This document shows, one piece after another, positions 20,855-62,980 of a stretch of 64,000 nt of DNA. The DNA is taken from contig CALSSA010000001.1 in NCBI GenBank assembly GCA_943788875.1, positions 248,001 through 312,000 of the forward strand, written 5' to 3'. The position numbers and the translations under genes are program-made. The notes beneath the pieces are model-generated. The model was not told the DNA's origin. It saw nothing but the letters and a program-made list of their open reading frames with translations, and ran no database searches. Within the stretch, counting starts at the first letter, position 1, and every line of letters starts with the position of its first letter. Source of the DNA: an uncultured Pseudomonadales bacterium. GTDB lineage: Bacteria > Pseudomonadota > Gammaproteobacteria > Pseudomonadales > Porticoccaceae.

Positions 20855-20882
20855 TTGTTTTAAAATTTAAACAATGTATATT
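20855..20882 (+). promoter_or_regulatory. Promoter of the ferredoxin gene (TTGTTT-16-TATATT)
   Basis: TTGTTT at 20855 and TATATT at 20877 are 16 bp apart and lie 43 bp before the ferredoxin ATG. The -35 hexamer and its mirror AAACAA (20869-20874) form an inverted repeat with an 8-bp centre, a possible operator. The block around the -10 (ATGTATATT) resembles ATGTATAGT at the promoters before 21539 and 33261. A second dyad, AGCGCTT with AAGCGCT (20828-20850), lies just upstream. Confidence 0.55.
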
Positions 20883-20924
20883 GCAGCCGCATCTTAATCA
20901 CACCCACAGCAACGGAGTTTAGAT

Positions 20925-21245
20925 ATGCCCACAGTCACCTATGTAGAAGCCAACGGCCACAGCCATGAAATTGATATCGCATCTGGAGTCAGCCTGATGC
21001 AGGGTGCTGTAGACAATATGATTGAGGGCATTGTTGCGGAATGTGGCGGTGCCTGTGCCTGCGCAACCTGCCATTGCTATATAGACGAAAGCTGGGTTGA
21101 CAAACTCGAACCCGCCAGCGAAATGGAGAAGGACCTGCTGGACTGTGTTACTGACCCTCAAGACAATAGCCGATTATCTTGTCAGGTCAAAATGACCGAT
21201 GCGCTCAATGGTCTGGTAGTACATTTACCCGAGTCTCAATTCTAG
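20925..21245 (+). CDS. Putidaredoxin-like [2Fe-2S] ferredoxin
   Basis: A 106-residue plant-type/adrenodoxin-class ferredoxin that passes single electrons, typically to a class I cytochrome P450. The cluster ligands are Cys40, Cys46, Cys49 and Cys86 (C-x5-C-x2-C-x36-C). The protein aligns from end to end with putidaredoxin of Pseudomonas putida, including VSLMQGAV and the C-terminal NGLVVHLPESQ. The last residue is Phe where putidaredoxin has its functional C-terminal Trp. An extra cysteine (Cys44) lies inside the cluster loop. The CYP101-like P450 at 41028-42227 is the obvious partner by inference. A matching ferredoxin reductase is not in the window. Confidence 0.9.
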   Translation: MPTVTYVEANGHSHEIDIASGVSLMQGAVDNMIEGIVAECGGACACATCHCYIDESWVDKLEPASEMEKDLLDCVTDPQDNSRLSCQVKMTDALNGLVVHLPESQF

Positions 21246-21276
21246 CGACCAGCAGAATTTTTGGCCCTGTCTGCAC

Positions 21277-21296
21277 CCCGCCTATCAATAGGCGGG
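21277..21296. other. Perfect 8-bp hairpin after the ferredoxin gene
   Basis: CCCGCCTA and TAGGCGGG (21277-21284 and 21289-21296) form a perfect stem around the tetraloop TCAA, 32 bp after the ferredoxin stop. No T run follows, so it may protect the transcript end or act as a rho-assisted stop. The rest of the 21246-21538 gap holds the operon A promoter and nothing else recognised. Confidence 0.5.
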
Positions 21297-21461
21297 TTAG
21301 CATCAACCGGGCTTTCACCCTTCCAGCAACAACCTAATCGCCCTATCCAACCCGCAGCAATGCCCTGACCGAAAACTCTCTGGCCAGAATATGCCGTGTG
21401 CCCCTATGTCCGCATGATTTTCCAGCGCGATCGCAGAGAAAAATACCTCACTATGCGAAAA

Positions 21462-21499
21462 CCATCACGTTTGTTTTTTTTATTTATAAGATGTATAGT
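21462..21499 (+). promoter_or_regulatory. Operon A promoter with CCATCACGTTTGTT motif
   Basis: TTGTTT (21471-21476) and TATAGT (21494-21499) are separated by 17 bp and lie 40 bp before the E1 alpha start. The -35 is embedded in CCATCACGTTTGTTTTTT (21462-21479). That 18-mer recurs with one change at 48130-48147 in the leader of the TonB receptor gene. The -10 context ATGTATAGT recurs exactly at 33214-33222. This suggests a shared regulator. Confidence 0.6.
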
Positions 21500-21538
21500 T
21501 TAAGCAGCTCATAACTCAACAAAAAAAGGTTCATCTCC

Positions 21539-22510
21539 ATGCCATATCAAGAGGAATTTCTACTCAGAGCCTACCGCTCCATGAGAACTATTCGCGAGTT
21601 CGAAGAACGCTGCATCGCCGAATTTATGGGCGGTAATGTGCCTGGCTTTGTGCACGCCTCCAACGGTCAAGAAGCCATTGCGGTTGCTGCCTGTATTGAT
21701 CTTAGCGACAGCGACATTATTGGCAGTACTCATCGCGGGCACGGCCACTGCATTGCCAAAGGCTGCGATATTGGCGGCATGATGAAAGAGATCATGGGTC
21801 GCTCCACCGGCCTTTGCAAAGGCAAAGGCGGCTCCATGCATATTGCCGATATTGATAAAGGCATGCTCGGCGCCAACGCTATTGTTGGTGGTGGGCCGCC
21901 ACTGGTTAACGGCGCGGCACTGGCCTCCAAAACTCTGGGCACCAAGAATGTCGCCCTGTCATTTAATGGCGATGGCAGTGCCAACCAGGGTACGGCTATG
22001 GAAGCCATGAATATGGCGGTGGTTCTGCAGCTACCCCATGTGTTTATTTACGAGAACAATGGTTATGCGGAAGGCACAGCAGCTAACTATGGTCTTGGCT
22101 GTGACAGCCTGACCGATCGCAATGCCGGCTTTGGTATGCCCGCTGAATGCGTTGATGGCAATGACTTCTTTGCCACCTACGAGGCAATCAAGGTTGCAAC
22201 TAAACGGGCACGCGATGGCGGTGGCCCTACTTCTATCGAAGCCAAATGTGTGCGCTTTGATGGCCACTTTATTGGTGACCCACAGCTCTACCGCGGCAAA
22301 GACGAAGTCAAAAATGCCCGCAAGAATCAGGATTGCTTAAAAATCTTCCGTGACCGCGTGATTAAAGAAGGCTGGTTAAAAACCGCGGCCATGGATGCGA
22401 TCGACAAAGAGATTAAAGTCGAAATAGAACAGGCGGTTGCAGACGGTCTTGCTGCACCGCATCCAGATCCCGTCACGGACCTGATGTCCGATGTCTACTG
22501 CTCATACTAA
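21539..22510 (+). CDS. acoA: 2-oxo acid/acetoin dehydrogenase E1 component, alpha subunit
   Basis: The thiamine-diphosphate E1 alpha subunit of an acetoin-dehydrogenase-type complex, which decarboxylates a 2-oxo acid or cleaves a 2-hydroxyketone or diketone. The ThDP motif GDGSANQG starts at residue 144 and closes with NN at 173-174. STHRGHGHCIAKG and GKGGSMHIAD are typical of AcoA and short PDH E1 alpha chains. The length of 323 residues fits AcoA. It is the first gene of operon A, with AAAGGT upstream of its ATG. The natural substrate in this island is unknown. Confidence 0.88.
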   Translation: MPYQEEFLLRAYRSMRTIREFEERCIAEFMGGNVPGFVHASNGQEAIAVAACIDLSDSDIIGSTHRGHGHCIAKGCDIGGMMKEIMGRSTGLCKGKGGSMHIADIDKGMLGANAIVGGGPPLVNGAALASKTLGTKNVALSFNGDGSANQGTAMEAMNMAVVLQLPHVFIYENNGYAEGTAANYGLGCDSLTDRNAGFGMPAECVDGNDFFATYEAIKVATKRARDGGGPTSIEAKCVRFDGHFIGDPQLYRGKDEVKNARKNQDCLKIFRDRVIKEGWLKTAAMDAIDKEIKVEIEQAVADGLAAPHPDPVTDLMSDVYCSY

Positions 22511-22520
22511 GGTGACCCAA

Positions 22521-23567
22521 ATGACTAACAATTCTAATAATGCACAGGTCGCCGGCAAGACTTCAATTAAGACTTACCGCGACGCCATCAATGACGCTAT
22601 TCGCGAAGAGATGCGCCGTGACCCCACAGTTATAGTTCTCGGTGAAGAAGTTTCTGGTGGTGCCGGTTGTGACGGTGAAGATGATGCTTACGGTGGTGTT
22701 TTTGGCGTAACCAAAGGTCTGATGCCCGAATTCGGGCGCGAGCGTGTGATCGATACCCCTATTTCGGAAGCCGCTATTATTGGTGCCGCTGCCGGTGCTG
22801 CTAACAATGGTTTGCGGCCGATTGCCGAGCTAATGTTCTTTGACTTTATCGGCGTATCCTTTGACCAGATCTTTAACCAGGCGGCCAAGTTCCGCTATAT
22901 GTTTGGCGGCAAGTCAAAAACGCCCATGGTTATCCGCGGCACAGTGGGCGGCGGTTGGCGCGCCGGTGCACAGCACTCCAGCATGCTGCACTCTATTGTT
23001 ACCCATATTGCCGGCCTTAAGGTGGTTATGCCCAGCAATGCCTATGATGCCAAAGGGCTGATGGTACAGGCAATTCGTGACGATGACCCGGTGATCTTCC
23101 TTGAGCACAAAGTGATGTACGACAATGAGTGTGAAGTGCCCGACGAGCAGTATGCCATTCCCTTTGGTGAGGCCGCATTCCCCCGTCAGGGCAAGGATGT
23201 GACCATAGTCGCCATCTCAAATATGGTCACCCATGCCATTGCCGCCGCCGACATTCTGGCCGAGGAAGGTATTAGCTGCGATGTAATTGACCCGCGCACC
23301 GTGTCGCCAATGGATGATGAAGCCATTCTCGAGAGTGTCGAGGTCACAGGTCGACTGGTGGTGGTTGATGAGGGTAACCCGCGCTGCGGACTGGCTTCAG
23401 ATATCGCTGGTATTGTTGCAGAGAAAGGCTTCCATAGCCTTAGAGCACCGATTCGCACGGTAACAGCACCTCATACGCCGGTACCTTTTGCACCTGAATT
23501 AGAAGATGCCTACCTGCCGAATGTGGATAAGGTACTTGCCGCTGTTCGGGAAGTACTGGGAGCCTAA
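22521..23567 (+). CDS. acoB: 2-oxo acid/acetoin dehydrogenase E1 component, beta subunit
   Basis: The beta subunit completes the E1 active site. GEEVSGGAG, RVIDTPISEAAIIGAA, RGTVGGGWRAGAQHS and VIDPRTVSPMDDE are the family blocks. The QHS histidine is the conserved active-site residue. The frame is open from 22491, overlapping acoA, but ATG at 22521 has AAGGTGA five bases upstream and is the likely start, giving 348 residues. The E2 gene follows after two bases. Confidence 0.9.
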   Translation: MTNNSNNAQVAGKTSIKTYRDAINDAIREEMRRDPTVIVLGEEVSGGAGCDGEDDAYGGVFGVTKGLMPEFGRERVIDTPISEAAIIGAAAGAANNGLRPIAELMFFDFIGVSFDQIFNQAAKFRYMFGGKSKTPMVIRGTVGGGWRAGAQHSSMLHSIVTHIAGLKVVMPSNAYDAKGLMVQAIRDDDPVIFLEHKVMYDNECEVPDEQYAIPFGEAAFPRQGKDVTIVAISNMVTHAIAAADILAEEGISCDVIDPRTVSPMDDEAILESVEVTGRLVVVDEGNPRCGLASDIAGIVAEKGFHSLRAPIRTVTAPHTPVPFAPELEDAYLPNVDKVLAAVREVLGA

Positions 23568-23569
23568 TC

Positions 23570-25030
23570 ATGAGCAATGAAATCAAGTCAATCCAGATGC
23601 CCAAATGGGGCATGGAAATGTCAGAGGGTGAAATTAATGCCTGGCATGTTGAAATAGGTGCTCAGGTAAATGCTGAGGATGATCTGGTGGATGTTGAAAC
23701 CAGCAAGATCATCAATACAGTCACTGCCGCTCACAGCGGCGTGTTGCGAGCTATTGTCGCCCAGACCGGCGAAACCCATGATGTGGGTGCCCTTCTTGGT
23801 GTTCTTGCATCGGCGGAGACCAGCGAAGCAGAGATTCAGGCATTTATTGATAGTCACAAAACCACCAGCGCAGATTCAGTAGCCGCCAAGCCCGTAGCAT
23901 CGGAGCCTGCACCCGCAGTGACAGACGCTGCACCTAAGGCAAGTAGCAATTCAGCCCTGGCTGAAGGAGGGGATGATGGCCATATTGCCGCTTCGCCCGT
24001 AGCCCGCCGACTGGCTGCAGAATACGGCGTGAATCTCAATAATATTACCGGCACAGGCCGCCATGGCCGCGTCTCCAAAAGTGATCTTGAGGCAGTTGTG
24101 ACTGCCTCCGGTGGTCAGCTAGTTGGCACCAACCCCGCAGCTCCGGCAGGCGCAGCCCAGCATGGTGATGATAGTCAGGTTAAGGCCACACCAGTTGCGC
24201 GTCGTCTGGCTAAAGAGCTGGGTATTAATCTTCATGAATGCCGTGTCAGTGGCGATCGTGGCCGTGTCTGTAAAGCTGATGTTGAAGCCGCAGCAGCGCT
24301 GAAAAACAAACTGCCAGCCCAGTCAGTGACTGTAAGCTCAGCACCAAGCAGCTCTGAGTCACAGGTTATTAGTGGGATGCGCAAAACGATTGCCGCACGC
24401 CTGCAGTCATCCAAACAAACTGCCCCCCATTACCGAGTGCAGATTGATGCCGAACTGGACAACCTGCTAGCCACACGCAAGCAGATTAATGATGCCAACA
24501 CCCAGACCAAAGTCTCGGTCAATGACTTTATTATCAAAGCCTGTGCCAGCGCATTAATAAGAGTGCCCGCGGTTAATGTGCAGTTTGATGGCGAGCAAGT
24601 CACTCAGTTTGCTGATGCCGATATCAGTGTTGCAGTGGCCATCAAAGATGGGTTGATCACCCCCATTATTTGTGGTGCCAACAACAAAGGGCTGGAAGGC
24701 ATTTCCCATGAGATGCGCGACCTATCCACCAGAGCCAAACTCAACCGTCTCAAGCCTGAAGAGTTTCAGGGAGGCAGTTTCTGTATCTCTAATCTGGGTA
24801 TGTATGGCATCAAGCAGTTCGACGCCATTATTAACCCACCTCAGGGCGCGATTTTAGCCGTGGGTTCAGGGGAGCAGAGAGCCGTGGTGAAAAATGGTGA
24901 ACTGGCCGTAGCCACTGTTATAAGCCTTACTCTGTCCAGCGACCATCGCATTATTGATGGCGCGGTTGCCGCTGAATTTATGTCTGTACTCAAAGGCTTC
25001 CTAGAGCAGCCCGCGACTATGTTGGTATAA
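23570..25030 (+). CDS. acoC: Dihydrolipoamide acyltransferase (E2) with two peripheral-subunit-binding domains
   Basis: The E2 core of the complex transfers the acyl group from lipoamide to CoA. An N-terminal lipoyl domain has its modified Lys at residue 46 (VETSKI). Two E3/E1-binding domains follow in tandem, at about residues 139-175 (ASPVARRLAAEYGVNLNNI) and 206-242 (ATPVARRLAKELGINLHEC), where most E2 chains have one. The catalytic domain spans about 264-486, with His459 and Asp463 in DHRIIDGA. Ala/Pro-rich linkers separate the domains. Full length is 486 residues. It lies between E1 beta and lpd in operon A. Confidence 0.92.
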   Translation: MSNEIKSIQMPKWGMEMSEGEINAWHVEIGAQVNAEDDLVDVETSKIINTVTAAHSGVLRAIVAQTGETHDVGALLGVLASAETSEAEIQAFIDSHKTTSADSVAAKPVASEPAPAVTDAAPKASSNSALAEGGDDGHIAASPVARRLAAEYGVNLNNITGTGRHGRVSKSDLEAVVTASGGQLVGTNPAAPAGAAQHGDDSQVKATPVARRLAKELGINLHECRVSGDRGRVCKADVEAAAALKNKLPAQSVTVSSAPSSSESQVISGMRKTIAARLQSSKQTAPHYRVQIDAELDNLLATRKQINDANTQTKVSVNDFIIKACASALIRVPAVNVQFDGEQVTQFADADISVAVAIKDGLITPIICGANNKGLEGISHEMRDLSTRAKLNRLKPEEFQGGSFCISNLGMYGIKQFDAIINPPQGAILAVGSGEQRAVVKNGELAVATVISLTLSSDHRIIDGAVAAEFMSVLKGFLEQPATMLV

Positions 25031-25053
25031 ACAATGGGCGAGCGTAGACAACA

Positions 25054-26451
25054 GTGAGTATTCAGCAATACGACCTAATGGTAGTAGGTGGCGGCCCCGG
25101 TGGCTATGTGGCCGCCATTCGTGCCGCCCAATTGGGTTTTAAAACAGCGCTGGTCGAAAAACAACACCTGGGTGGCGTGTGCCTAAACTGGGGCTGCATT
25201 CCCACCAAGGCACTGCTCCGCGGTGCGGATATTGCCCATACTTTAAAAGAGGCAGACCACTTCGGCTTTAGCTTCGATAACCTCAGTTTTGATATTAATA
25301 AACTGGTTAAACATAGCCGCTCGGTAGCCAGCAAGCTCAGTGGCGGCGTTGCCTATCTGATGCAGAAAAATAACATTACTGTGATTGATGGCACAGCCAC
25401 TGTGGCCGAAAAATGTCTGCTTGATGTCAGCCACAACGGCGCAGTCACCCAGTACCGCAGCAACCATATTATTCTCGCCACCGGTGCCCGAGCGCGCAAT
25501 TTACCCAATATTGAGATTGATGGCGACCTTGTCTGGGGTGCCCGCGAAGCTATGACTCCCACTGCCCTGCCCGGCAGCCTGCTGGTTATTGGCGGCGGCG
25601 CCATAGGCGTGGAATTTGCCAGTCTCTACAATGATCTGGGTACCGATGTCACCTTGGTCGAGGCCGCAGAGCGCATTACCCCGGCAGAAGATGCCGAGAT
25701 TTCAGCCCTGGCAGAAAAATCCTTTGCACAGCGAGGTATTAAGATACTGACCAATACCTTGGTCGACTCCATTGAAGGCGCTGGAAAACAGGCCTTAGCC
25801 CTGATTAAAGGCGCCGATGGCGACCAGCACCTAAAATTTGATCAGGTCATTCTGGCTGTGGGAATACAGGGCAATATCGAAGGACTTGGCCTTGAGAGTC
25901 TAGGTGTTAAAACCGAAAACAGTTTTTTAAGCGCTGACCCCTTTGGTAGAACCAATCTGGTTGGCCTGTACGCCATCGGCGATGTCGCCGGTGCTCCCTG
26001 GCTGGCCCATAAAGCCAGCCATGAAGCCATTGTCTGCGTGGAAAATATTGCCGGCATCGAGGCTGTCCAGCCGTTAAATAAAAACCGCGTGCCCGGCTGT
26101 ACCTATTGCCGTCCGCAGATTGCCAGCGTCGGCCTGACCGAAGCTCAGGCTAAGGCCGCAGGACATAGCATTCGAGTGGGGCGCTCCAGCCTCAGCGCCA
26201 ATGGCAAAGCTCTGGCCATCCATGAAGCAGAAGGAATGGTTAAAACCATCTTCGATGCCGACAGTGGCGAATTACTAGGCGCCCACATGATTGGCCCAGA
26301 AGTCACAGAGCAAATTCAGGGGTTTGGTATAGCACAACAGCTTGCAGCCACAGAACATGATTTGGCCCATACCATTTACGCCCACCCAACCGTATCTGAA
26401 AGCATGCATGAGTCTGTGTTGGACAGCCTCGGCGTGGCGATCCATCAATAG
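25054..26451 (+). CDS. lpdA: Dihydrolipoyl dehydrogenase (E3)
   Basis: A flavoprotein that reoxidises dihydrolipoamide with NAD+. GGGPGGYVAAIRAAQ (residues 12-26) is the FAD site. The redox disulfide is Cys43/Cys48 in GGVCLNWGCIPTKA, GGGAIGVEFASLY is the NAD site, and YAHPTVSESMHE carries the catalytic His-Glu pair. The 465-residue length is normal. The start is GTG at 25054. The presence of a dedicated E3 indicates that operon A encodes a self-contained dehydrogenase complex. Confidence 0.95.
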   Translation: MSIQQYDLMVVGGGPGGYVAAIRAAQLGFKTALVEKQHLGGVCLNWGCIPTKALLRGADIAHTLKEADHFGFSFDNLSFDINKLVKHSRSVASKLSGGVAYLMQKNNITVIDGTATVAEKCLLDVSHNGAVTQYRSNHIILATGARARNLPNIEIDGDLVWGAREAMTPTALPGSLLVIGGGAIGVEFASLYNDLGTDVTLVEAAERITPAEDAEISALAEKSFAQRGIKILTNTLVDSIEGAGKQALALIKGADGDQHLKFDQVILAVGIQGNIEGLGLESLGVKTENSFLSADPFGRTNLVGLYAIGDVAGAPWLAHKASHEAIVCVENIAGIEAVQPLNKNRVPGCTYCRPQIASVGLTEAQAKAAGHSIRVGRSSLSANGKALAIHEAEGMVKTIFDADSGELLGAHMIGPEVTEQIQGFGIAQQLAATEHDLAHTIYAHPTVSESMHESVLDSLGVAIHQ

Positions 26452-26460: not shown

Positions 26461-26892
26461 ATGAGTAACCAAGTCCCAATCCATGAAGGTCTATTTACTT
26501 GGCCAGCCGCCAAACCCCAGTTACTGGGCAGTCGCTGCAACCAATGTGCCGAAGCCACCTTCCCCGCCCAACCCGATTGTCGCAGCTGTGGCTCGCGGGA
26601 AACAACAATTGTTGAGCTGGGTGATCGAGGCATATTGTGGACCTGGACCATTCAGACCTTTATGCCCAAACAGCCCTACCGCAGTGACGAGACCCCAGAG
26701 ACATTTCGCCCCTACGGCGTAGGCTATGTGGAAATGCCCGGCGGTGTGCGTGTCGAGACTCGACTGCAAGCCAATAGCCCAGATCAGTTGCAAATAGGCA
26801 TGGCCATGCAGCTGGATATTATTCCGTTTCGCACCGACGAAAATGGCGATCAAAAAATGACCTTTAGTTTTAGTGCAGCACAGGGAGCATAG
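26461..26892 (+). CDS. DUF35 OB-fold/zinc-ribbon acyl-CoA-binding protein
   Basis: A 143-residue protein with a rubredoxin-like zinc ribbon (Cys26, Cys29, Cys40, Cys43) followed by an OB-fold (LWTWTIQTFMPKQPYR onward). DUF35 proteins pair with thiolase-like subunits, as in the steroid side-chain aldolase Ltp2-ChsH2 and in BbsA-BbsB of toluene degradation. There they help bind the CoA substrate. The thiolase-like gene follows after three bases, so the two are very likely a complex. Confidence 0.85.
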   Translation: MSNQVPIHEGLFTWPAAKPQLLGSRCNQCAEATFPAQPDCRSCGSRETTIVELGDRGILWTWTIQTFMPKQPYRSDETPETFRPYGVGYVEMPGGVRVETRLQANSPDQLQIGMAMQLDIIPFRTDENGDQKMTFSFSAAQGA

Positions 26893-26895: not shown

Positions 26896-28038
26896 ATGGA
26901 TGTAGCAATTATAGGTATAGGACTTCATCGCTTTGGTCGCTCCCCCGACATGTCCGGCATGCAGCAAGGCGCCTCTGCGGTGCGCGCAGCGCTCGCCGAT
27001 GCCGGTCTCTCATGGGCAGATATGCAATTCGCCTACGGCGGCAGTCAAGACGGCGGCAATGCCGACGCGCTGGTTAATGAGCTGGGACTAACTGGTCTGC
27101 AATTTACTAATATCTGGAATGGCTGTGCCACGGGCGGCAGTTCATTGCATGCGGCTTACAGTGCGATTAAATCCGGCGAGTACGATGTGGGCGTTGTGGT
27201 TGGTTTCGACAAGCACCCGCGGGGTGCCTTTAATCCCCAACCCAAAGAATGGGGATTGGACGAATGGTATGGGGAGACTGGGCTTATGCTCACTACCCAG
27301 TTTTTTGCCCTTAAGACCCAGCGCTATATGTACGATCACGGTATTACCGAAGATGCCTTAATTCGCGTCTCCGAAAAAGCCTTTACCAATGGCTCGCTGA
27401 CACCAACCGCCTGGCGCCAGCAGGCCCTGAGCTATGAAGAGATTGCCAACTCGGCCATGGTCAGCGACCCATTGCGCAAGTATATGTTCTGCAGCCCTGC
27501 CGAAGGTGGCGCGGCGCTGATTATTTGCAATGCCGACAAGGCTCATCAGTACTGCAGTAACCCGTTATTTTTGAAAGCGGCCGCCGTGCGCACCCGCCAC
27601 TATGGCAGCTTTGAAGTATTCGCCCCTTCTCAGGCAATGGAGGTTGCCGACGCACCAACCGTCACTGCCTCCAAGGCCGCCTTTGAACAGGCGGGCATTG
27701 GCCCAGAAGATGTGGATGTTATGCAGCTTCAGGATACCGACAGCGGCACAGAGATTATGCACATGGCAGAAAATGGCTTCTGTGAGCACGGCGAGCAGGA
27801 AAAACTGCTCCTTGAGGGCGCCACCGGTATTCATGGCCGTCTACCTATTAATACCGATGGCGGCTGTTTAGCCAATGGTGAACCTGTTGGCGCCTCTGGC
27901 CTGCGGCAGGTGTATGAAGTATGCGTGCAATTGCGTGGTGAAGGTGGTGCTCGACAGGTGCCTAACAAGCCCAAAGTTGGCTACACCCATGTCTATGGTG
28001 CCCCCGGCATCAGTGGCGTTAATATTATTACTAAATAA
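26896..28038 (+). CDS. Thiolase-like (SCP2/Ltp-type) acyl-CoA cleaving enzyme
   Basis: A 380-residue thiolase-superfamily protein of the lipid-transfer-protein class. Cys77 in NGCATGGSS occupies the nucleophile position. The C-terminal loop reads ANGEPVGASG, where classical thiolases have GHPxGxSG, so the catalytic histidine position is changed. This is common among DUF35-linked members and suggests a retro-aldol or other C-C cleavage rather than ordinary thiolysis. It sits directly after its probable DUF35 partner and before a Rieske oxygenase gene. Confidence 0.82.
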   Translation: MDVAIIGIGLHRFGRSPDMSGMQQGASAVRAALADAGLSWADMQFAYGGSQDGGNADALVNELGLTGLQFTNIWNGCATGGSSLHAAYSAIKSGEYDVGVVVGFDKHPRGAFNPQPKEWGLDEWYGETGLMLTTQFFALKTQRYMYDHGITEDALIRVSEKAFTNGSLTPTAWRQQALSYEEIANSAMVSDPLRKYMFCSPAEGGAALIICNADKAHQYCSNPLFLKAAAVRTRHYGSFEVFAPSQAMEVADAPTVTASKAAFEQAGIGPEDVDVMQLQDTDSGTEIMHMAENGFCEHGEQEKLLLEGATGIHGRLPINTDGGCLANGEPVGASGLRQVYEVCVQLRGEGGARQVPNKPKVGYTHVYGAPGISGVNIITK

Positions 28039-28065: not shown

Positions 28066-29448
28066 ATGTCTGAATTAATTAAAGTAAAACAGCAGGGTGA
28101 AGCCCGCTGTGAAGGTCTGAGCTATCAGGATCTGCTCAACGACGAAACTATCGAAGTACCGGCCTACCTGCGCGAAGATAACAACCCTTACATGGGTGAC
28201 GAAGACATAGATGTAGCACGCTGGATCGGCCGTGATTTTCACGAGCAAGAAAAGAAAAAGCTATGGCCCAAGGTCTGGCAAATGACCTGCCGCGAGGAAG
28301 ATATTCCTGAAGTGGGCGACCATCATGTTTATGAGATTGTCGACCAGTCGATTATTGTTACTCGCACCGGTGAAAATGAATTTAAAGCCTTTATTAACTC
28401 CTGCTTACACCGCGGCCGCATACTGCGTGACAACGACGGTCATGCGGAAGAATTTGTGTGCCCATTCCACGGCGCAACCTGGGATATTCATGGCAACTTT
28501 AAAGGTATCCCCTGCAAGTGGGACTTTAGCCATTTAGACGAGAAAGATATGAGTCTGCCACAGGTCAAAACCGGTACCTGGGGTGGCTTTATCTTTATAA
28601 ACTTTGATGAAAACTGCGTCCCTCTGGAAGACTACCTCAGCCCGTTGCCAGAGCATTTCGCCCGTTTCCCACTGCACGACTACTACAAAGGCGCCCATGT
28701 TGAGCGCGTCGTTCAGTGCAACTGGAAAGTCGGCGCCGAGGCCTTTATGGAGTCATTCCATACCCTCGAAACCCACAGCGAGATTCTCACCTTTACCGGT
28801 GATGCCAACTCCCAGTACGACACCTTTGGTGATCATGTAAGCCGGTCTGTCACCCCTATGGGTGTGCCCAGTCCGCATATGCCAGAAGTCACTGAAGCTG
28901 AGACCATGCGCGATATTCTTGAGCTGTCGGGCCGTATGGCAACCGATAGCGCCGAGGGACACGAAATGCCCGAAGGCCTGACTGCACGTACCTACGTAGC
29001 AGAGACCAATCGTGAAATGTTTAGCGAGATTATTGGCGAGCCACTGGATCAGGCCACCAAGTCAGAACTGGAAGACGCCATACTTTATATGCTGTTCCCC
29101 AATACTCAGGTATGGACTGGCTACCACGGCAATATCGTCTATCGTTTCCTGCCTAATGGTGACGACCACAATAGCTGTATCTTCGAAACCATGATTCTGA
29201 TGCGCTACCCAAAGGGTACTAAAAAGCCCGATCCCGCAGAGAAAAATACACTGCGCCCAGATCAAGCCTTTAGTGAAGCGCCAGAAATTGGTGGCCTGGG
29301 TCCAGTATTTGATCAGGACGACAGCAATATGGCCGCAGTGCAAAAAGGTATGATTGCCTCCAAGAAAGGGGCGGTAAGCCTGGCCAGTTATCAAGAGAGC
29401 CGTATTCGTCATCTGCACCAAACCATTGATAAGTACCTCAATGCCTAA
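28066..29448 (+). CDS. Rieske non-heme iron oxygenase, alpha subunit (1)
   Basis: A ring-hydroxylating-type oxygenase of 460 residues. The Rieske centre is Cys113/His115 and Cys132/His135 (CLHRG and CPFHG). The mononuclear iron ligands are likely His232 and His237 in ESFHTLETH. No small beta subunit gene is adjacent, which fits an alpha-only oxygenase. The start ATG follows AGGAG. It is in operon A, and the Rieske ferredoxin gene downstream could supply its electrons. The substrate is unknown. Confidence 0.9.
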   Translation: MSELIKVKQQGEARCEGLSYQDLLNDETIEVPAYLREDNNPYMGDEDIDVARWIGRDFHEQEKKKLWPKVWQMTCREEDIPEVGDHHVYEIVDQSIIVTRTGENEFKAFINSCLHRGRILRDNDGHAEEFVCPFHGATWDIHGNFKGIPCKWDFSHLDEKDMSLPQVKTGTWGGFIFINFDENCVPLEDYLSPLPEHFARFPLHDYYKGAHVERVVQCNWKVGAEAFMESFHTLETHSEILTFTGDANSQYDTFGDHVSRSVTPMGVPSPHMPEVTEAETMRDILELSGRMATDSAEGHEMPEGLTARTYVAETNREMFSEIIGEPLDQATKSELEDAILYMLFPNTQVWTGYHGNIVYRFLPNGDDHNSCIFETMILMRYPKGTKKPDPAEKNTLRPDQAFSEAPEIGGLGPVFDQDDSNMAAVQKGMIASKKGAVSLASYQESRIRHLHQTIDKYLNA

Positions 29449-29523: not shown

Positions 29524-29838
29524 ATGGCCACCACAGATACGTTAATTCCCGCAACCGATATTACCGACAATCAAACAGTCCCTGTCACCTTGGATGGGAA
29601 GAATATTCTTATCTGCAAGGCTAATGGCGATTTTTATGCGGTTGACAATATGTGTACGCACCAGCGCGCAGAACTGACCGGTGGTCGTATTAGAAATTGT
29701 TATCTAGCCTGCCCCTTACATGGCGTGCGCTTTGATTTACGCACAGGTAAACCCATGGGCGAGCTCACCAGGGTGCCCCTGAAAACCTATGATGTCAGCC
29801 TGGCTGACAACGGCAATCTGCAAATAGAATTGGAATAA
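29524..29838 (+). CDS. Rieske [2Fe-2S] ferredoxin
   Basis: A 104-residue stand-alone Rieske protein with Cys44/His46 and Cys63/His66 (CTHQRA and CPLHG). Such ferredoxins deliver electrons to Rieske oxygenases. It lies 75 bp after the oxygenase gene and three bases before an MDR reductase gene. No flavoprotein reductase of the usual ferredoxin-NAD(P)H type is nearby, so the upstream electron donor is not known. Confidence 0.9.
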   Translation: MATTDTLIPATDITDNQTVPVTLDGKNILICKANGDFYAVDNMCTHQRAELTGGRIRNCYLACPLHGVRFDLRTGKPMGELTRVPLKTYDVSLADNGNLQIELE

Positions 29839-33674: not shown

Positions 33675-33715
33675 TTCCATCTTGCCAAAGTAACTCCGAT
33701 TTTCAAGGAGCCACC

Positions 33716-38087: not shown

Positions 38088-38147
38088 GCTGTAGCCTTTT
38101 CATCGGCTATTGCCGACTATAAAAACATTAAAAGCGAGCACAGCAAG

Positions 38148-38594: not shown

Positions 38595-38613
38595 AAATAT
38601 CAGGGATTAAATT

Positions 38614-38928: not shown

Positions 38929-38956
38929 AACCTGAAACAGTCGAGGAACACACAAG

Positions 38957-42227: not shown

Positions 42228-42245
42228 CTCAGCCTCCAATAGGTT

Positions 42246-43025: not shown

Positions 43026-43061
43026 CTTTTCTTGTTATTTTTTAAGCTCAATCTACAGCGT

Positions 43062-44996: not shown

Positions 44997-45022
44997 ACAA
45001 ATTTATACTCAATAAAATTTAG

Positions 45023-51427: not shown

Positions 51428-51473
51428 ATCTATTTACCCCTGCTGTTCTATTGTTATTATTCAGTGGTGGCAA

Positions 51474-54374: not shown

Positions 54375-54917
54375 TTATTTATAGGCAGAGAGGGGCGTAA
54401 CAATCTCAATAAGATTGCCATTGTTGTCACGAATAAATAGCAACCGAACACCAGCCGCATCAAAGTTGGTTGGCGGTAACTCTAATTCCACGCCACGACT
54501 AACTAGCTCCGCAGCCACCGCATCTACATCGGCACTGCTAAAGGCCATATGCACATAGCCACGATCAGACATGGCAGTAAACACATCTGGGGCGACTTTC
54601 TCATCTTGAAACGGCTCCTTGGTGCCAACCACTTCAATCATAAAACCATTGGCAGAGATATAGCCCACATCCACATCTGGGTAACCGGCGATATCCCATT
54701 CCCGCACAACCTCAAACCCAAGCACAGTTTTATACCAGTCTAAAGTAGCGGCATAGTCCTGAGTTGAAATCATAATATGATCGGCACGCATCATAGCCAG
54801 GGGGTTGGCCTGGGGAGCACTGGGCGACGCGTCTTCAGCCGGAGCTAGATCGGCAGCAACCAGAGCCGAAAAACAAAAAACAATCAATCCTAAAAAGCTG
54901 GCTTTTGACATCTGCAT
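54375..54917 (-). CDS. Exported VOC (glyoxalase-like) protein
   Basis: A 180-residue protein. A signal peptide (hydrophobic SFLGLIVFCFSALVA) is followed by one VOC module: ADHIMISTQDYAATLDWYKTVLGFEVV at the start and LLFIRDNNGNLIEIVTPL at the end. The metal-binding residue pattern (His in ADHI, Glu in LIEIV) is present. It is much shorter than two-module extradiol dioxygenases. Its start overlaps the Rieske oxygenase stop by one base (TAATG). It probably works in the periplasm, like DUF3604. Confidence 0.85.
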   Translation of the reverse strand: MQMSKASFLGLIVFCFSALVAADLAPAEDASPSAPQANPLAMMRADHIMISTQDYAATLDWYKTVLGFEVVREWDIAGYPDVDVGYISANGFMIEVVGTKEPFQDEKVAPDVFTAMSDRGYVHMAFSSADVDAVAAELVSRGVELELPPTNFDAAGVRLLFIRDNNGNLIEIVTPLSAYK

Positions 54918-56260
54918 TACCTCAGCTGGTCAGAATTAATAATATCGGTATTGACATAGTCATTGAGCAGTTCATGGAACCGCTGCACGCGTTTTTCTTG
55001 ATGGGTGAGAATACAACCTTTAAAGCCACGGGAATTTAGCCCCTGCTGCTGGCTGGTGCCTATGCTCAGATCCTGGTCGGCCACATAGCCAACCGACTGT
55101 CCATCGCCATAGACACTGTGGCGGTTTTCGGCCCATTCCAACGGCATAGGACCAATAGGTGTAATAACTTCTTTCATCCCCTCAACCGGTGGTGCAAGTA
55201 CCCAGTGATGGAAAACGCATTTTTGTGGATCCGTTGGATGGGGTTCGGTACGCAGAATCTGGCACTGCTCTGGGGACATGGTAATCGTCAAATTGGGGAA
55301 CAGGGTGCAGTGAAAATAATCCACCAGCTGCTGATCGCTCATATTTTCATAATTGGTATAGCCTATCTCTGGGCCCATGCGCCGCTTCGCCGCCACTATC
55401 GCCTCGCGAATATCACCGGTGTGGCCCTTAAAGTCCTCGGGGTCAAGACCCCAGGCCCGAGCCACATCATCCAGCGGCGCAGGCACTTCTCCGGTTTCAA
55501 ACTCTGGGGTTCTGGTGGTAGCCTGATGGCCTTTCATCCACATGGAATTGTGGCCGGTTTCATACATCTCAAAAACAGTGTCAGACAGGCCATCGTTGAT
55601 AAAGGTCGACAGCTCGGGATGGATAGTGGGCAGGTGATAACTTTCGTTAAAGTTATCGCGGATAATCTTCCAGTTAAAATCTGCGTCCGCCGACAGGTAC
55701 ATGACCCGAATCCAATCGTCTAAGCCATAGCTTTTCAGGCGCTCGGGCAAAGGCGCCAGCCAGTCCAGCAAAGGTGCCACATCCTCATCCATGCAGTAGA
55801 AAATAAATGGCCCCCAGATCTCGCAGCGCACCTCCGCAAGGGTCACCTTGCCGCAGGGGTTGCCATCGGGAAAGTCATCCGCGTCCTGAACATTGACCAG
55901 CACTCCGTCGGGAGCAAACTGCCAGCCATGATAGCCACAGGTAATCTTGTCACTGCCGCCAATCTCACCCAATACCAAGCGATTGCCTCGGTGGGGGCAA
56001 GAATTATAGAACGCCTTAATACTCTCATCGGCCTGACGCACCATAATCACAGATTCGGTGCCCAGATTATGCCGCACATAGTCGCCCTCCTGCTCCAACT
56101 CAGCAACCATGCCACCGAGATGCCAAACCTTGGGCCACAGATGCTGGTTCTCGAGCCCCATAAATTCTTTGGAGATATAGCGATCCGCCGTAATGGTATC
56201 TCCCCGAACCGGAAGATCAAAACCCTGGGTATAGCGAGATGTCTCTGACGGTGCAGCCAT
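54917..56260 (-). CDS. Rieske non-heme iron oxygenase, alpha subunit (3)
   Basis: A 447-residue oxygenase. The Rieske ligands are Cys88/His90 and Cys108/His111 (CPHRGNRL and CGYHGW), and the iron site is likely His209 and His214 in ESYHLPTIHPE. No beta subunit or dedicated reductase is nearby. It heads the second half of operon C, after four SDR genes and before VOC and DUF3604. It aligns poorly with the other two Rieske oxygenases, so a different substrate or step is probable. Confidence 0.9.
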   Translation of the reverse strand: MAAPSETSRYTQGFDLPVRGDTITADRYISKEFMGLENQHLWPKVWHLGGMVAELEQEGDYVRHNLGTESVIMVRQADESIKAFYNSCPHRGNRLVLGEIGGSDKITCGYHGWQFAPDGVLVNVQDADDFPDGNPCGKVTLAEVRCEIWGPFIFYCMDEDVAPLLDWLAPLPERLKSYGLDDWIRVMYLSADADFNWKIIRDNFNESYHLPTIHPELSTFINDGLSDTVFEMYETGHNSMWMKGHQATTRTPEFETGEVPAPLDDVARAWGLDPEDFKGHTGDIREAIVAAKRRMGPEIGYTNYENMSDQQLVDYFHCTLFPNLTITMSPEQCQILRTEPHPTDPQKCVFHHWVLAPPVEGMKEVITPIGPMPLEWAENRHSVYGDGQSVGYVADQDLSIGTSQQQGLNSRGFKGCILTHQEKRVQRFHELLNDYVNTDIINSDQLR

Positions 56261-59711: not shown

Positions 59712-59786
59712 GGGAATAGGATAATTGGGGAAAGAAGACGGAAGTACGATGACAATGGAAACCTTGTCATCCGGGTCAAAGTTAAC

Positions 59787-59815
59787 GCAAACCTGATCTA
59801 TTCGATCAGGTTTGC
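59787..59815 (-). terminator. Perfect 12-bp hairpin at the end of the TetR gene
   Basis: GCAAACCTGATC and GATCAGGTTTGC form a perfect stem around a five-base loop. The stem includes the last codons and stop of the TetR gene. No strong T run follows, so it may terminate weakly or stabilise the transcript end. Confidence 0.55.
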
Positions 59816-60484
59816 CTCTTGGTAGATATCGTAAAGAATAGCAGTGAGGTAGGTCATTACACGTTTAGCTCGGGCCTTCTTGCGCACCGACATATGGCTC
59901 AGTGCCATACCTTTCATTAAAAACTGCACCATATCGTGGGCGCCTTCAAGTCTCGACAAGTTCTGCCAATGGGGAAATACCGCCTTGGCTGTATCGAGAA
60001 ACTGTTTCTCAAAATCTTTTTCTACTGGATCAATCACCTGACGTAACTCAGCGTCAGTGCGCGAGGCGCCCAACAGTTCCTGATAGGCCAGAAATGAGGG
60101 TAAATTGACATATTGCCAAGCAGCCTCAACGGACTCGCGTATCACCTGGTGAGTCAGAGAGCGCTGAGGGTCATCAATATCAGCCATTAACTCAAGGTAC
60201 TCTTGCAATCGTAGCTGGTGCAAATGATCAACCACAGCCCTCATTACCGACATGCGCGAGGGGAAGTGATGCATCATAGCGCCGCGAGAAACACCGGCAT
60301 AATTAGCAATTAACGCGGTTGTCGTATTTGCATAACCCAACTCAAGAAGACACTGAATTGTCGCTTCCAGTATCGCCAAACGCGTCATGGCACTTTTTTC
60401 TGCCTGCCAGCCTTTCTCATTGCGCTTTGGTCGCTTGGTTTCCGTCATCTTTACTGTCACTTTCTCTGCCTTAAATTCTTTCAT
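59798..60484 (-). CDS. TetR/AcrR family regulator
   Basis: A regulator of 228 residues from ATG 60484 (GGTGG five bases upstream; an in-frame GTG at 60496 is the alternative). The helix-turn-helix is at about residues 53-75 (NTTTALIANYAGVSRGAMMHHF). The C-terminal ligand-binding part is helical. It is the only transcriptional regulator in the island, which makes it the leading candidate for controlling operons A-C. Its own upstream region contains an inverted repeat over the promoter. The effector is unknown, perhaps an acyl-CoA or pathway intermediate. Confidence 0.92.
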   Translation of the reverse strand: MKEFKAEKVTVKMTETKRPKRNEKGWQAEKSAMTRLAILEATIQCLLELGYANTTTALIANYAGVSRGAMMHHFPSRMSVMRAVVDHLHQLRLQEYLELMADIDDPQRSLTHQVIRESVEAAWQYVNLPSFLAYQELLGASRTDAELRQVIDPVEKDFEKQFLDTAKAVFPHWQNLSRLEGAHDMVQFLMKGMALSHMSVRKKARAKRVMTYLTAILYDIYQEANLIE

Positions 60485-60547
60485 TAATGCCACCACTACA
60501 AAGTCCGTTTAAATCGGTGAAATATGTTAGCCCCCAAAAACAAGCCG

Positions 60548-60583
60548 GTGATTGTAAGTTTCTTTGAAGTTAAAAACAATCAC
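60548..60583 (-). promoter_or_regulatory. TetR gene promoter overlapped by an inverted repeat
   Basis: GTGATTGT (60548-60555) and ACAATCAC (60576-60583) are exact inverted repeats 20 bp apart. On the minus strand TTGTTT (60579-60574), a 17-bp spacer and TACAAT (60556-60551) form a promoter that lies almost wholly inside them. A further AACAATCA half-site occurs at 60635-60642. This layout suggests autorepression by the TetR protein. Confidence 0.55.
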
Positions 60584-60590
60584 GAATGCC

Positions 60591-60604
60591 TTATCTATAG
60601 ATAA
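60591..60604. promoter_or_regulatory. 14-bp perfect palindrome upstream of the TetR gene
   Basis: TTATCTATAGATAA is its own reverse complement. It lies just upstream of the predicted -35 of the TetR promoter. It may be a second operator, though AT-rich palindromes of this length can occur by chance. Confidence 0.35.
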
Positions 60605-60697
60605 ATGATTAAATTCTGAGAATTTTTGCCTCTAAACAATCAACTTAACCGCCATTTCAGCCAGCGAGCACCGCATCATTATGGGCGGGCACTTTAT

Positions 60698-61927
60698 TCA
60701 GGCTTTGCTATCGGAATAACGTTCGATAATTTGCTTGCCTAGCGCCATCTGGTGCACCTGATCCGGGCCATCGGCCTGACGGCACCAGCGGGCATAGTTA
60801 TAACCCTCAGCCATGCAGTAATCTTCTGTCAAACCACCGGCACCATGCATTTGCATAGCTCGGTCAATCACATTCTGCACCAGCAGCGGTATCGTGGTTT
60901 TTGTTGCGGCAATCATATCGATGGAGGCAGGTACCCCCTCCTCATCAATTTTGTGGCAGGTTTTTAATACCAGCAGGCGAGCCATTTCAATTTCAGAAAA
61001 CATCCGAGATATGTCTTCACGCACAGATTGATGCTTACTTAATGGACGGCCAAAAGTCACTCTGGAAGTGGCTCTCTGACAGGCCAATTCCAGCGACCGC
61101 TGAGCAGTCCCGATCAGCCGCATACAATGATGCATGCGCCCAGGCCCCAGTCGACCCTGAGCAATTTCAAAGCCACGCCCCTCACCCAGCAGCACATTTT
61201 CTGCGGGAACACGGCAGTTTTCAAAGATGAGTTCCGCATGACCTATGGGTGCATCGTCATAACCAAAGGTAGACAGAGGCCGTACCAACGTGAGGCCCGG
61301 CGTATCCTTGGGCACCAGCACCTGAGTCTGCTGCAAATGGCGGTTAGCATTGTCTGGGTCTGACTTGCCCATCACAATAAGAATCTTAGTGCGCTCATTC
61401 ATGGCGCCGGTGATAAACCACTTGCGGCCATTAAGTACCCATTCATCACCGTCTTTTACAATACTCATCTCAACATTGGTCGCATCACTCGACGCAACCT
61501 GAGGCTCCGTCATAGCGTAGGAAGAGCGGATATCACCGTTTAACAGTGGCTGCAGCCATTTATCTTGCTGTGCCTTGGTCGCGTAATTCATAAACACTTC
61601 CATATTGCCAGTGTCAGGCGCATTGCAATTAAACACCTCAGGGGACCAGATAACCCGACCCATCACCTCACACAGCGGCGCATATTCAGCAAAGCTCAAA
61701 CCACCATGATCACAGTATTCAGCATGGGATGGTGGGACAAAAAGATTCCACAGACCAGCTGCCTTAGCCTTTAATTTCAGCTCGTCCATCAGCGGCAGAG
61801 GGGCAAAACGGTTTTCCGCCGCGTCTAATTGGCGAGCATAATTTTCTTCATTGGGGTAAATGTGTTCATCGAAAAAGTCATTCAGCCGCTCGAGTATCTG
61901 CTGAGATTTTTCACTGTTATGGTACAT
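60698..61927 (-). CDS. Acyl-CoA dehydrogenase (3), ACAD10/11-like
   Basis: A 409-residue dehydrogenase with AMTEPQVASSDATN in the FAD/substrate region, LNGRKWFITGA, and the end block ARWCRQADGPDQVHQMALGKQ. The ADGPDxVH motif is typical of the ACAD10/ACAD11-like branch, which handles long or branched acyl-CoAs. Unlike the pair in operon B it stands alone, followed leftward by the TetR gene after a 200-bp regulatory gap. The start is ATG at 61927. Confidence 0.92.
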   Translation of the reverse strand: MYHNSEKSQQILERLNDFFDEHIYPNEENYARQLDAAENRFAPLPLMDELKLKAKAAGLWNLFVPPSHAEYCDHGGLSFAEYAPLCEVMGRVIWSPEVFNCNAPDTGNMEVFMNYATKAQQDKWLQPLLNGDIRSSYAMTEPQVASSDATNVEMSIVKDGDEWVLNGRKWFITGAMNERTKILIVMGKSDPDNANRHLQQTQVLVPKDTPGLTLVRPLSTFGYDDAPIGHAELIFENCRVPAENVLLGEGRGFEIAQGRLGPGRMHHCMRLIGTAQRSLELACQRATSRVTFGRPLSKHQSVREDISRMFSEIEMARLLVLKTCHKIDEEGVPASIDMIAATKTTIPLLVQNVIDRAMQMHGAGGLTEDYCMAEGYNYARWCRQADGPDQVHQMALGKQIIERYSDSKA

Positions 61928-62001
61928 ATTGGGGCTCCGCTAGAGGCCTTATTCACCAGGCCGAGTTAATAATTGAAAGACTGAGTTAGCAATTGCTACC
62001 T

Positions 62002-62865
62002 TTACCACCAGGGATAAAAGGAAGGCATGTCCGAAGTAGCACTGGACTTAAAATCCGCCTGTCGTTTTTCCATAAATGCCGACACCCCCTCCTTGCCATC
62101 AGCCGCACTGGTGTAATAAACCGCGAGGGATTCAACTTTGTGGGCTTCTATCGGATGGTCAGTCGCAGAGTTGCGATACATCATCTGTCTGATCAGCGCA
62201 GAGGACACCGGCGCAGTGTTGCTGGCAATCTCCCCGGCCATCTCATAGGCCCTGGCCAGCAAATTGTCCGGCTCGCAAACCTCATATACCAACCCGCCCT
62301 GCTGGGCGTCGCTGGCATTAAATATCTCCCCAGTCAGCATCCACTTCAACGACTGCTGCATGCCCACAATGCGAGGCAAAAACCAGGTAGAACAACCCTC
62401 AGGAGCAATACCGATCTTGCCAAACACAAACCCGATACGGGCCTTCTCAGACGCCAGGCGAATGTCCATCGCGCAGATCATGGTCGCGCCAATACCCACA
62501 GCAGCGCCGTTAATCGCAGCAATGACCGGCTTTTTACATTCATAAATTGCCAGAGTCACCTTGCCGCCACTATCACGAACACCAGGCATACTGTCCGGAT
62601 TCTCCATCTCCGCAAGGGTAGGCTGACGCCCCTCATCAAGACCAAACACATTGCCTGCTGAAGTCAGATCCATCCCAGCGCAAAATGCTTTGCCCGCACC
62701 GGTGACAACAATCACGCGAACATCATCATCTTCACTGGCGCGATAAAACGCCGCCGCCAACTCATCGCTCATTTCCAGCGTAAAAGCGTTCATGCTGTCT
62801 GGTCGATTGAGCAGCAATGTTAAAATGCCGTCCTCAACCAAATATTTAATTGTGTTGTATTCCAT
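62002..62865 (-). CDS. Enoyl-CoA hydratase/isomerase family protein
   Basis: A 287-residue crotonase-fold protein that would hydrate or isomerise an enoyl-CoA. VVTGAGKAFCAGMDLTSAG forms the first half of the oxyanion hole, and AAINGAAVGIGATMICAMDIRLA the second. FGKIGIAPEGCSTWFLPRIVG carries the Glu common in hydratases. The C-terminus extends beyond the core and ends MPSFYPWW. It is transcribed leftward just before dehydrogenase 3, with a TTTGTTTTTT element in its upstream region. Confidence 0.92.
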   Translation of the reverse strand: MEYNTIKYLVEDGILTLLLNRPDSMNAFTLEMSDELAAAFYRASEDDDVRVIVVTGAGKAFCAGMDLTSAGNVFGLDEGRQPTLAEMENPDSMPGVRDSGGKVTLAIYECKKPVIAAINGAAVGIGATMICAMDIRLASEKARIGFVFGKIGIAPEGCSTWFLPRIVGMQQSLKWMLTGEIFNASDAQQGGLVYEVCEPDNLLARAYEMAGEIASNTAPVSSALIRQMMYRNSATDHPIEAHKVESLAVYYTSAADGKEGVSAFMEKRQADFKSSATSDMPSFYPWW

Positions 62866-62980
62866 AATCAGTCCTTGTTAAGCCATCAATCAATGGGAGA
62901 GAGCAGCGACTTGCCAACCTAGGTGAAGAGTTTAAAAGGCAAACTCTCGATACATTTAGGGCTCAGATATTAGCATCAGT

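Follow-up and report, generated by a model that had tools for sequence, protein, structure and literature searches.

A conserved terpenoid-type catabolic island with a CYP101B1-like entry enzyme and a widely shared lower core in SAR92 bacteria

When analyzing a 64,000-nucleotide stretch of DNA from an uncultured Pseudomonadales bacterium (assembly GCA_943788875.1, contig CALSSA010000001.1, positions 248,001 to 312,000; the whole stretch is called the window below), we found a genuine, conserved catabolic island of terpenoid type, with a CYP101B1-like cytochrome P450 at its entry and a lower core that is widely shared. The island occupies window positions 20925-62865 and holds 42 genes (93% coding). 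At the level of sequence it stands out by its gene content, its collinearity among related genomes, its insertion site (seven island genomes), a CYP101 P450 with His at the Tyr96 position of P450cam, a related cluster on the Novosphingobium plasmid pNL2, the lower core, and a thiolase-like protein in which Glu replaces a His. As our leading but by no means secure reading, we propose that the island breaks down a small cyclic isoprenoid completely, most likely an ionone-type norisoprenoid (a C13 or related apocarotenoid with a gem-dimethylcyclohexane ring).

Among named relatives of Rieske oxygenase 1 (RO1) of the island, nine reach 88-100% identity; seven of these carry the title Porticoccaceae and two HTCC2207, which places the window in the SAR92/HTCC2207 genus. 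Bacteria of the SAR92 clade are common along coasts. With a dedicated terpenoid island of 42 kb, found in 16 of the 50 sampled genomes of the genus, such species would hold a defined isoprenoid niche.

Gene content of the island

The island starts with a ferredoxin gene at 20925 and ends with an enoyl-CoA hydratase gene that stops at 62865. Its flanks are housekeeping-like, with ctaA (19407-20462) on one side and a class II tRNA synthetase gene (63082 on) on the other, and its GC content is 50.3%, compared with 49.7% upstream. Scans of the window for tRNAs and Rfam families gave no match, and a promoter/terminator scan at the 5' edge of the island gave no signal above shuffled sequences. Families were assigned by Pfam scans of all 42 genes, and an NCBIfam scan covered 20 of the 42 proteins. 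In the list below, SDR and MDR are short- and medium-chain dehydrogenases/reductases, ACAD is acyl-CoA dehydrogenase, and PDH is pyruvate dehydrogenase.

20925-21245, plus: [2Fe-2S] ferredoxin (Fer2), candidate P450 redox partner (PF00111, 2e-8; Cys spacing C-x5-C-x2-C-x36-C)
21539-22510, plus: E1alpha of a 2-oxo acid/acyloin dehydrogenase complex (Pfam; below NCBIfam PDH cut-off)
22491-23567, plus: E1beta (Pfam; NCBIfam PRK09212 above cut-off)
23570-25030, plus: E2 with lipoyl and E3-binding domains (Pfam; below NCBIfam PDH cut-off)
25054-26451, plus: E3 (Pfam; NCBIfam TIGR01350 above cut-off)
26461-26892, plus: DUF35 protein, ChsH2-type zinc ribbon and OB fold (PF12172, PF01796)
26896-28038, plus: thiolase-like protein, Glu replacing the GHP His (Pfam; PDB alignments)
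28066-29448, plus: RO1, Rieske oxygenase alpha subunit (PF00848/PF00355; motifs CxH-x16-CxxH and NWK...E...H...H)
29524-29838, plus: Rieske ferredoxin (PF00355, 7e-18)
29841-30854, plus: MDR1, ADH_N_2-type, enone reductase-like family (PF16884)
30865-31281, minus: GFA (Pfam)
31302-32069, minus: SDR1 (Pfam)
32074-33084, minus: MDR2 (Pfam)
33261-34060, plus: SnoaL1 and ABM1 (Pfam)
34275-35069, plus: BaxI-like membrane protein (PF12811)
35326-36255, minus: alpha/beta hydrolase (Pfam)
36377-37393, minus: MDR3 (Pfam)
37647-40956, plus: SnoaL2, START-like, ABM2, RO2 (38957-40153) and ThuA (40150-40956) (Pfam)
41028-42239, minus: CYP101-family P450, His93 at the P450cam Tyr96 position (PDB phmmer; alignments)
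42246-43823, minus: SDR2 and SDR3 (Pfam)
43866-46210, minus: ACAD1 (PimD-like) and ACAD2 (PimC-like), paired (NCBIfam TIGR03203 325 bits and TIGR03204 354 bits, both below cut-off)
46338-47921, minus: acyl-CoA ligase (PF00501)
48249-50504, plus: TonB-dependent receptor (PF00593/PF07715)
50660-54355, minus: SDR4, MDR4 and DUF3604 (Pfam)
52487-54355, minus (start re-set from 54463): the DUF3604 protein, PHP-like, signal-like N terminus (Pfam; model and Foldseek)
54375-54917, minus: VOC/glyoxalase-fold protein (Pfam)
54917-56260, minus: RO3, Rieske oxygenase (Pfam; 70-75% identical to eight sphingomonad plasmid records)
56327-59622, minus: SDR5 to SDR8 (Pfam)
59798-60496, minus: TetR regulator (PF00440)
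60698-62865, minus: ACAD3 and enoyl-CoA hydratase (Pfam; hydratase above PRK08260 cut-off)

An original prediction, made from the letters of the DNA, had described an oxidative catabolic island here, and every enzyme family that it listed was recovered by Pfam in the number given: one TonB receptor (48249), one CoA ligase (46338), one P450 (41028), one enoyl-CoA hydratase (62002), three acyl-CoA dehydrogenases (43866, 45023, and 60698), three Rieske oxygenases (28066, 38957, and 54917, besides the Rieske ferredoxin at 29524), eight SDRs (31302, 42246, 43062, 50660, 56327, 57132, 57915, and 58711), four MDRs (29841, 32074, 36377, and 51474), a DUF35-thiolase pair (26461, 26896), and a complete E1alpha/E1beta/E2/E3 set (21539-26451). 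The large operons around one TetR regulator that it described correspond to eight directons, four of them with 5-12 genes, and a single TetR gene (59798); intergenic gaps within directons are mostly below 130 bp, and three are 175-293 bp. Genes that it had not mentioned encode the [2Fe-2S] ferredoxin (20925), GFA, two SnoaL, two ABM, START-like, and ThuA proteins, and further the alpha/beta hydrolase, DUF3604, VOC/glyoxalase, and BaxI-like proteins.

CoA-thioester chemistry, which had also been suggested, is supported. The statement that no extradiol enzyme is visible holds for two-domain extradiol dioxygenases, none of which was found in the island, but a single-domain VOC protein is present at 54375. 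An alicyclic or terpenoid type of substrate is likewise supported, but the steroid option named alongside it is not. Degradation of a steroid, a sterol side chain, or a bile acid would fit the ChsH2-type DUF35 protein, the paired ACADs, and the SCP2-type thiolase, which resemble sterol side-chain enzymes. However, no KstD-type FAD enzyme and no KshA- or HsaC-like gene was seen in the island, the genome outside it not having been searched. In PDB searches with RO1 and RO3, RO3 matched KshA at 1.6e-6 versus 6e-28 for carnitine monooxygenase, and RO1 had no KshA match at 1e-3 (RO2 was not compared). PMC9655578 describes the substrates of CYP101 enzymes as small, flavonoids excepted. We give the steroid explanation a very small probability. 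A biosynthetic role was rejected because a beta-oxidation set is present.

Conservation and insertion site

A search of the island proteins for conserved clusters, proposed together with the original prediction, found the gene order kept in all 11 same-genus sources compared (over about 40 kb in eight and over 4-20 kb in three) and a related cluster on pNL2. The order was not conserved in two sources from other genera (G005 and G004). Conservation in 11 of 11 same-genus sources indicates that the arrangement is more than chance. Some sources had single-gene gaps; for example, the DUF3604, VOC, SDR7, and hydrolase genes were undetected in G051, START in G038, and SDR4 in G014, and G039 had two extra distant matches beside the conserved order. 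The BaxI-like gene is probably a passenger: of the sources compared, the window, G038 (the single case among the 11 same-genus sources), and locus L059 alone have it within the island.

A P450 with at least 80% identity was found in 16 of the 50 sampled genomes of the genus. Island-type E1beta (at least 89%) occurred in 15 of these 16 (13 full, 2 partial) and in none of the 34 others, where the best match was at most 44% (E 1e-40). G033 and G045 each have the island P450 twice, the extra copy (90-92% identical) lying on a different contig. In 29 genomes of the genus, ctaA and the synthetase gene share a contig, and the distance between them was measured; 20 genomes had the two split over contigs or had just one of them, and G057 had neither. 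This distance is 387-5456 bp in the 22 measured genomes without the island and 41.8-50.5 kb in the 7 with it, so that by sequence this is a genuine island with one insertion site, which the 29 measured genomes either carry as a unit or lack.

Nine island-less sites were read. Seven of them (G019, G025, G026, G027, G046, G048, and G050) hold another ACAD pair, 27-34% identical to ACAD1/ACAD2, and two have no match to any window gene except the flanks. A similar ACAD pair precedes the island in L057. Given these pairs, the ctaA-synthetase site may be a hotspot.

The CYP101 P450 and the related cluster on pNL2

The best PDB matches of the window P450 by phmmer were CYP101J2 (1e-110) and P450cam (7e-107), and its identities are 44.6% to the pNL2 CYP101 (CYP101B1), 42.7% to P450cam, and 42.1% to CYP101J2. 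Membership in a CYP family takes about 40% or more identity to named members. From the near-equal values of 42-45%, membership of the window P450 in the CYP101 family is clear, and its subfamily is not decided by identity. The alignment contains the heme-Cys motif FGRGAHTCPG and an Asp-Thr pair (DT at 248-249). At the Phe87, Tyr96, and Phe98 sites of P450cam, the enzyme has Ile84, His93, and Leu95; it is B1-like in that Tyr96 is absent and smaller residues occupy the Phe87 and Phe98 sites. According to PMC9655578, camphor enzymes grip their substrate through Tyr96 together with bulky neighbouring residues, and CYP101B1 and CYP101C1, which use ionone, are without Tyr96. All 16 island genomes have His at this site, as read from one island P450 copy per genome, and it is also found in three Novosphingobium P450s in RO3 clusters (L131, L132, and L170), G005, a G004 fragment, and Luminiphilus syltensis. 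The CYP101s of Pseudomonas MYb185 and Pseudoduganella have Phe/Tyr/Phe like P450cam, and no RO1 core was found in the 39-40 kb read around them.

The original prediction had recognised no named pathway, camphor being one of those that it listed. No named pathway was matched in our searches either, but the P450 proved to be a CYP101 with a homologous cluster around CYP101B1 on pNL2, and the island indeed lacks the camphor set. Like the camphor pathway with its CYP101A1, it has a CYP101 P450 and a [2Fe-2S] ferredoxin at the entry. Camphor degradation is marked by a diketocamphane (luciferase-type) monooxygenase and an FAD-type Baeyer-Villiger enzyme in the cluster. In contrast, the island P450 is without Phe87/Tyr96/Phe98, Pfam found no Baeyer-Villiger enzyme in the island, and PF00296 (Bac_luciferase) had no match in the genome of the window (95% complete), whereas 10 of 14 control genomes match.

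These data also bear on a broader explanation, in which the island serves cyclic terpenoids in general (a monoterpenoid of bornane, cineole, or p-menthane type, or a sesqui- or diterpenoid) through the same CYP101 entry and lower layer. The P450 is nearly equally close to each of the enzymes compared, CYP101 members also act on camphor and cineole as far as the available literature text goes, and Pseudomonas, Zoogloea, and Halieaceae have the lower layer without CYP101 nearby. However, the Phe87/Tyr96/Phe98 set and the Bac_luciferase-type monooxygenase of camphor degraders were not found in the P450 and the genome, respectively, and CYP101J2, the 1,8-cineole hydroxylase of Sphingobium yanoikuyae, which belongs to the same P450 family (42.1%), also has Tyr at the Tyr96 site. 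We consider this explanation possible, although unlikely.

Support for an ionone-type substrate comes from Novosphingobium aromaticivorans DSM 12444, whose plasmid pNL2 carries a related cluster around CYP101B1 at about 144-181 kb. The pNL2 P450 has His at residue 85 and no identical chain in the PDB, where 3NV5 is presumably CYP101D2. In the available text of PMC9655578, CYP101C1 (3OFU) and CYP101D1 (3LXH) are both solved, and in that of PMC10302094, changing HIS85 of CYP101B1 to PHE gave a lower beta-ionone affinity. By elimination and by its His at residue 85, the pNL2 P450 is therefore CYP101B1. We compared 51 window proteins (42 island, 9 flanking) reciprocally with 66 pNL2 proteins (125.5-202.2 kb). 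All 18 reciprocal best hits were with island proteins, and 17 fell among the 36 pNL2 proteins starting at 143.6-181.3 kb, compared with 1 among the 30 others. Shared with the island are the CYP101 with His, RO3 (71%), ThuA (60%), an RO1-type oxygenase (43%), DUF35, thiolase (60%), ACAD2 (43%), E1alpha (50%), E1beta (62%), E2, TetR, the TonB receptor, and SnoaL homologues. The gene order differs, E3, ligase, Rieske ferredoxin, and DUF3604 are not in the PLSDB gene table of this stretch (itself incomplete), and the stretch has an FAD oxidoreductase and a GMC oxidoreductase. A gene annotated as an apocarotenoid 13,14-cleaving dioxygenase lies 17 kb from the cluster. No pathway description was found for the CYP101B1 cluster within an incomplete literature coverage. 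Together, His at the Tyr96 site and the CYP101B1 cluster favour a norisoprenoid or isoprenoid over a steroid or camphor.

In the RO3 tree, the SAR92 and Novosphingobium proteins fall into a single clade (100/100), while in the thiolase tree the island copy groups with Aestuariicella, Zhongshania, and other gammaproteobacteria; the island is thus, as judged from these trees, a mosaic, with probable exchange between classes. Strong RO3 matches proved rare: sampling 390 genomes of the order gave 7, with 6 from this genus. A strong thiolase match was present in 1 of 369 sampled genomes of the class, which was the genome of the window itself. The differing phylogenies, and a lower core that occurs alone, could also mean that the island is a patchwork of two or three neighbouring pathways (an ionone-type upper one, an alicyclic-acid lower one, and an exported DUF3604/VOC set). 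This is improbable in our judgment: gene order agrees across all 11 same-genus sources, each of the 29 measured genomes either has the block as one at its single site or lacks it, and both sets lie together on pNL2.

In Novosphingobium humi, genes for 3-hydroxyisobutyrate and methylmalonate-semialdehyde dehydrogenase lie within the same 29-kb stretch as RO3, as would be expected if the gem-dimethyl group leaves as an isobutyryl unit. In SAR92 (38957-40956, plus strand), Novosphingobium, and Croceicoccus (L131, L133, L177, and L187), a ThuA-domain gene repeatedly stands immediately after a Rieske oxygenase gene, and ThuA may be a partner in the chemistry. A compact gene set is carried by a plasmid of Niveispirillum cyanobacteriorum (L176), an isolate from cyanobacterial aggregates, with ThuA, VOC, MaoC, ferredoxin, SDR, Rieske ferredoxin, ACAD, Rieske oxygenase, E1alpha, E1beta, E2, and TonB receptor genes.

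The lower core and a proposed pathway

We examined the neighbourhoods of RO1 in the best 80 of at least 578 relatives (named loci, up to 21 kb each). DUF35, thiolase, and RO1 are adjacent in 41 of the 80 loci, E1alpha and E1beta in 33, and both groups occur in 23; a ligase is found in 27 and ACAD2 in 32. Hosts of this lower core include Aestuariicella, Zhongshania, Luminiphilus, Pseudomonas, Zoogloea, Halieaceae, actinobacteria, and, in part, sphingomonads. The P. saliphila locus adds two SnoaL genes, RO3, VOC, a DmmA-like reductase, and 3-hydroxyacyl-CoA dehydrogenase; its E2 frame (L084:5803-6564) has only the acyltransferase domain, without a lipoyl domain.

In the window, all parts of the 2-oxo acid dehydrogenase complex are present by Pfam (E1alpha, E1beta, E2 with lipoyl and E3-binding domains, and E3). 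Scores against the NCBIfam PDH cut-offs were 364 versus 321 for E1beta (PRK09212), 306 versus 394 for E1alpha (TIGR03182), and 435 versus 445 for E2 (TIGR01349), and the genome has a second E1beta at 44%. On an Agrobacterium plasmid (L175), an E1alpha/E1beta pair (E1beta about 62%) stands beside SDR, TetR, and VOC genes, with no E2 in the gene table.

The GHP His is the Claisen catalytic His of thiolases, and GHP is present in BbsB and SCP2-thiolase in PDB alignments. The island thiolase differs from both: all 57 homologous segments read, among which are duplicates of a single gene, have Glu in place of the His and keep the Cys. In NCBIfam the protein scored 234 bits as a "lipid-transfer protein" versus 146 bits as BbsB, both below cut-off. 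Like Ltp2-ChsH2 and BbsAB, the island pair combines a DUF35 partner with an SCP2-type thiolase fold. Removal of the ibuprofen side chain by the ipf genes employs a CoA ligase, a Rieske oxygenase, and an SCPx-thiolase/DUF35 pair as a unit on an aromatic substrate, a system that we liken to the island by its gene set. The analogy with ipf and Ltp2-ChsH2 suggests a retro-aldol activity for the island pair.

From these genes we infer a substrate and an order of steps. In an upper layer, the TonB receptor would import the ionone-type compound, the CYP101 P450 with the ferredoxin at 20925 would hydroxylate the ring, SDRs would turn alcohols into ketones, and ADH_N_2-type MDRs would saturate enones. 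In a lower layer, the ligase would form a CoA ester, and ACAD1/ACAD2, the enoyl-CoA hydratase, and one SDR would shorten the side chain. RO1 with the Rieske ferredoxin could then hydroxylate the carbon that bears the side chain. Acting on the resulting beta-hydroxyacyl-CoA as a retro-aldolase, the DUF35-thiolase-like pair could release acetyl- or propionyl-CoA and leave a cyclic ketone. A different Rieske enzyme would hydroxylate the position adjoining the ketone, and the E1/E2/E3 complex would cleave the acyloin, 1,2-diketone, or 2-oxo acid made by Rieske enzymes and SDRs to an acyl-CoA, so that neither a Baeyer-Villiger nor an extradiol step would be needed. No description of this gene set or ring-opening route was found within the incomplete literature coverage.

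CYP101B1 is known as a biocatalyst (PMC8197338, Table 6, as available), and the island is a candidate native pathway of enzymes of this type, while the E1-DUF35-thiolase-Rieske core offers a testable alternative to Baeyer-Villiger and extradiol cleavage. More doubtful is the full extension of this proposal: that the island is the native context of CYP101B1-type hydroxylases, that Rieske enzymes, a His-less DUF35-thiolase, and E1/E2/E3 replace Baeyer-Villiger and extradiol cleavage of the trimethylcyclohexane ring, and that SAR92 feeds on carotenoid products of algal blooms.

A further explanation assigns the island to abscisic acid (ABA) or vomifoliol-like hormones, or to free alicyclic acids such as naphthenic acids. 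According to the available text of PMC9599779, bacteria form rhodococcal acid, a tertiary beta-hydroxy acid, from ABA, and algae and sponges are among ABA sources. Such an acid is the substrate type expected for RO1, ligase, and the DUF35-thiolase pair; for alicyclic acids, the ligase and paired ACADs resemble cyclohexanecarboxylate and pimelate enzymes, although below cut-off. However, that text names no ABA-degradation genes, its authors assigning none and considering a Baeyer-Villiger step, and no Novosphingobium plasmid with a match to RO1, RO3, or thiolase comes from the ABA degrader sp. P6W, whose plasmids may be outside the collection. We give this explanation a low probability.

Several observations weigh against the ionone-type reading or the steps proposed for it. 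The thiolase scores higher in the PDB against BbsB (138 bits) and SCP2-thiolase (134) than against 6ok1 (97), which we take to be Ltp2. A CYP101-like P450 (at least 35%) was found in 0 of the 80 RO1 loci, nine SAR92 loci ending short of theirs, and 4 of 23 RO1-locus genomes searched gave no CYP101-alignment match at E 1e-40 (Aestuariicella albida, Zoogloea oleivorans, Pseudomonas tumuqii, and the metagenome-assembled genome SZAS-78). An intermediate shared by several substrates is therefore the probable target of the lower core, which is not ionone-specific. Relatives of E1beta with 60-64% identity occur widely on plasmids, where they stand in other contexts, and E1 specificity is not readable from sequence. 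No P450 was present in the RO3 regions read of N. humi, N. capsulatum, and Croceicoccus marinus; in N. humi a 33% P450 lies about 16 kb off the RO3 stretch. The P450 identities are almost equal for camphor, cineole, and pNL2 enzymes (42.7%, 42.1%, and 44.6%). The CYP101 of N. marinum (L135/L169) has Ile at the Tyr96 site, and in the available text of PMC9655578, CYP101D5 takes ionone yet keeps the Tyr, pointing outwards, so that His is not a strict marker of non-camphor members. CYP101B1 accepts other compounds too (PMC8197338, Table 6, as available). The genome of the window has no RPE65-type carotenoid-cleavage gene, and RPE65-family genes do not track the island (5 of 16 genomes with it versus 12 of 34 without). 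Finally, a Baeyer-Villiger enzyme may be coded elsewhere, three partial FMO-like matches being found on other contigs.

Outside the proposed steps, the predicted model of the DUF3604 protein (mean pLDDT 67.5, low confidence) matches the PHP-like metal phosphoesterases 3e38 (E 1.4e-4) and 2anu (E 0.02), which suggests an exported metal hydrolase.

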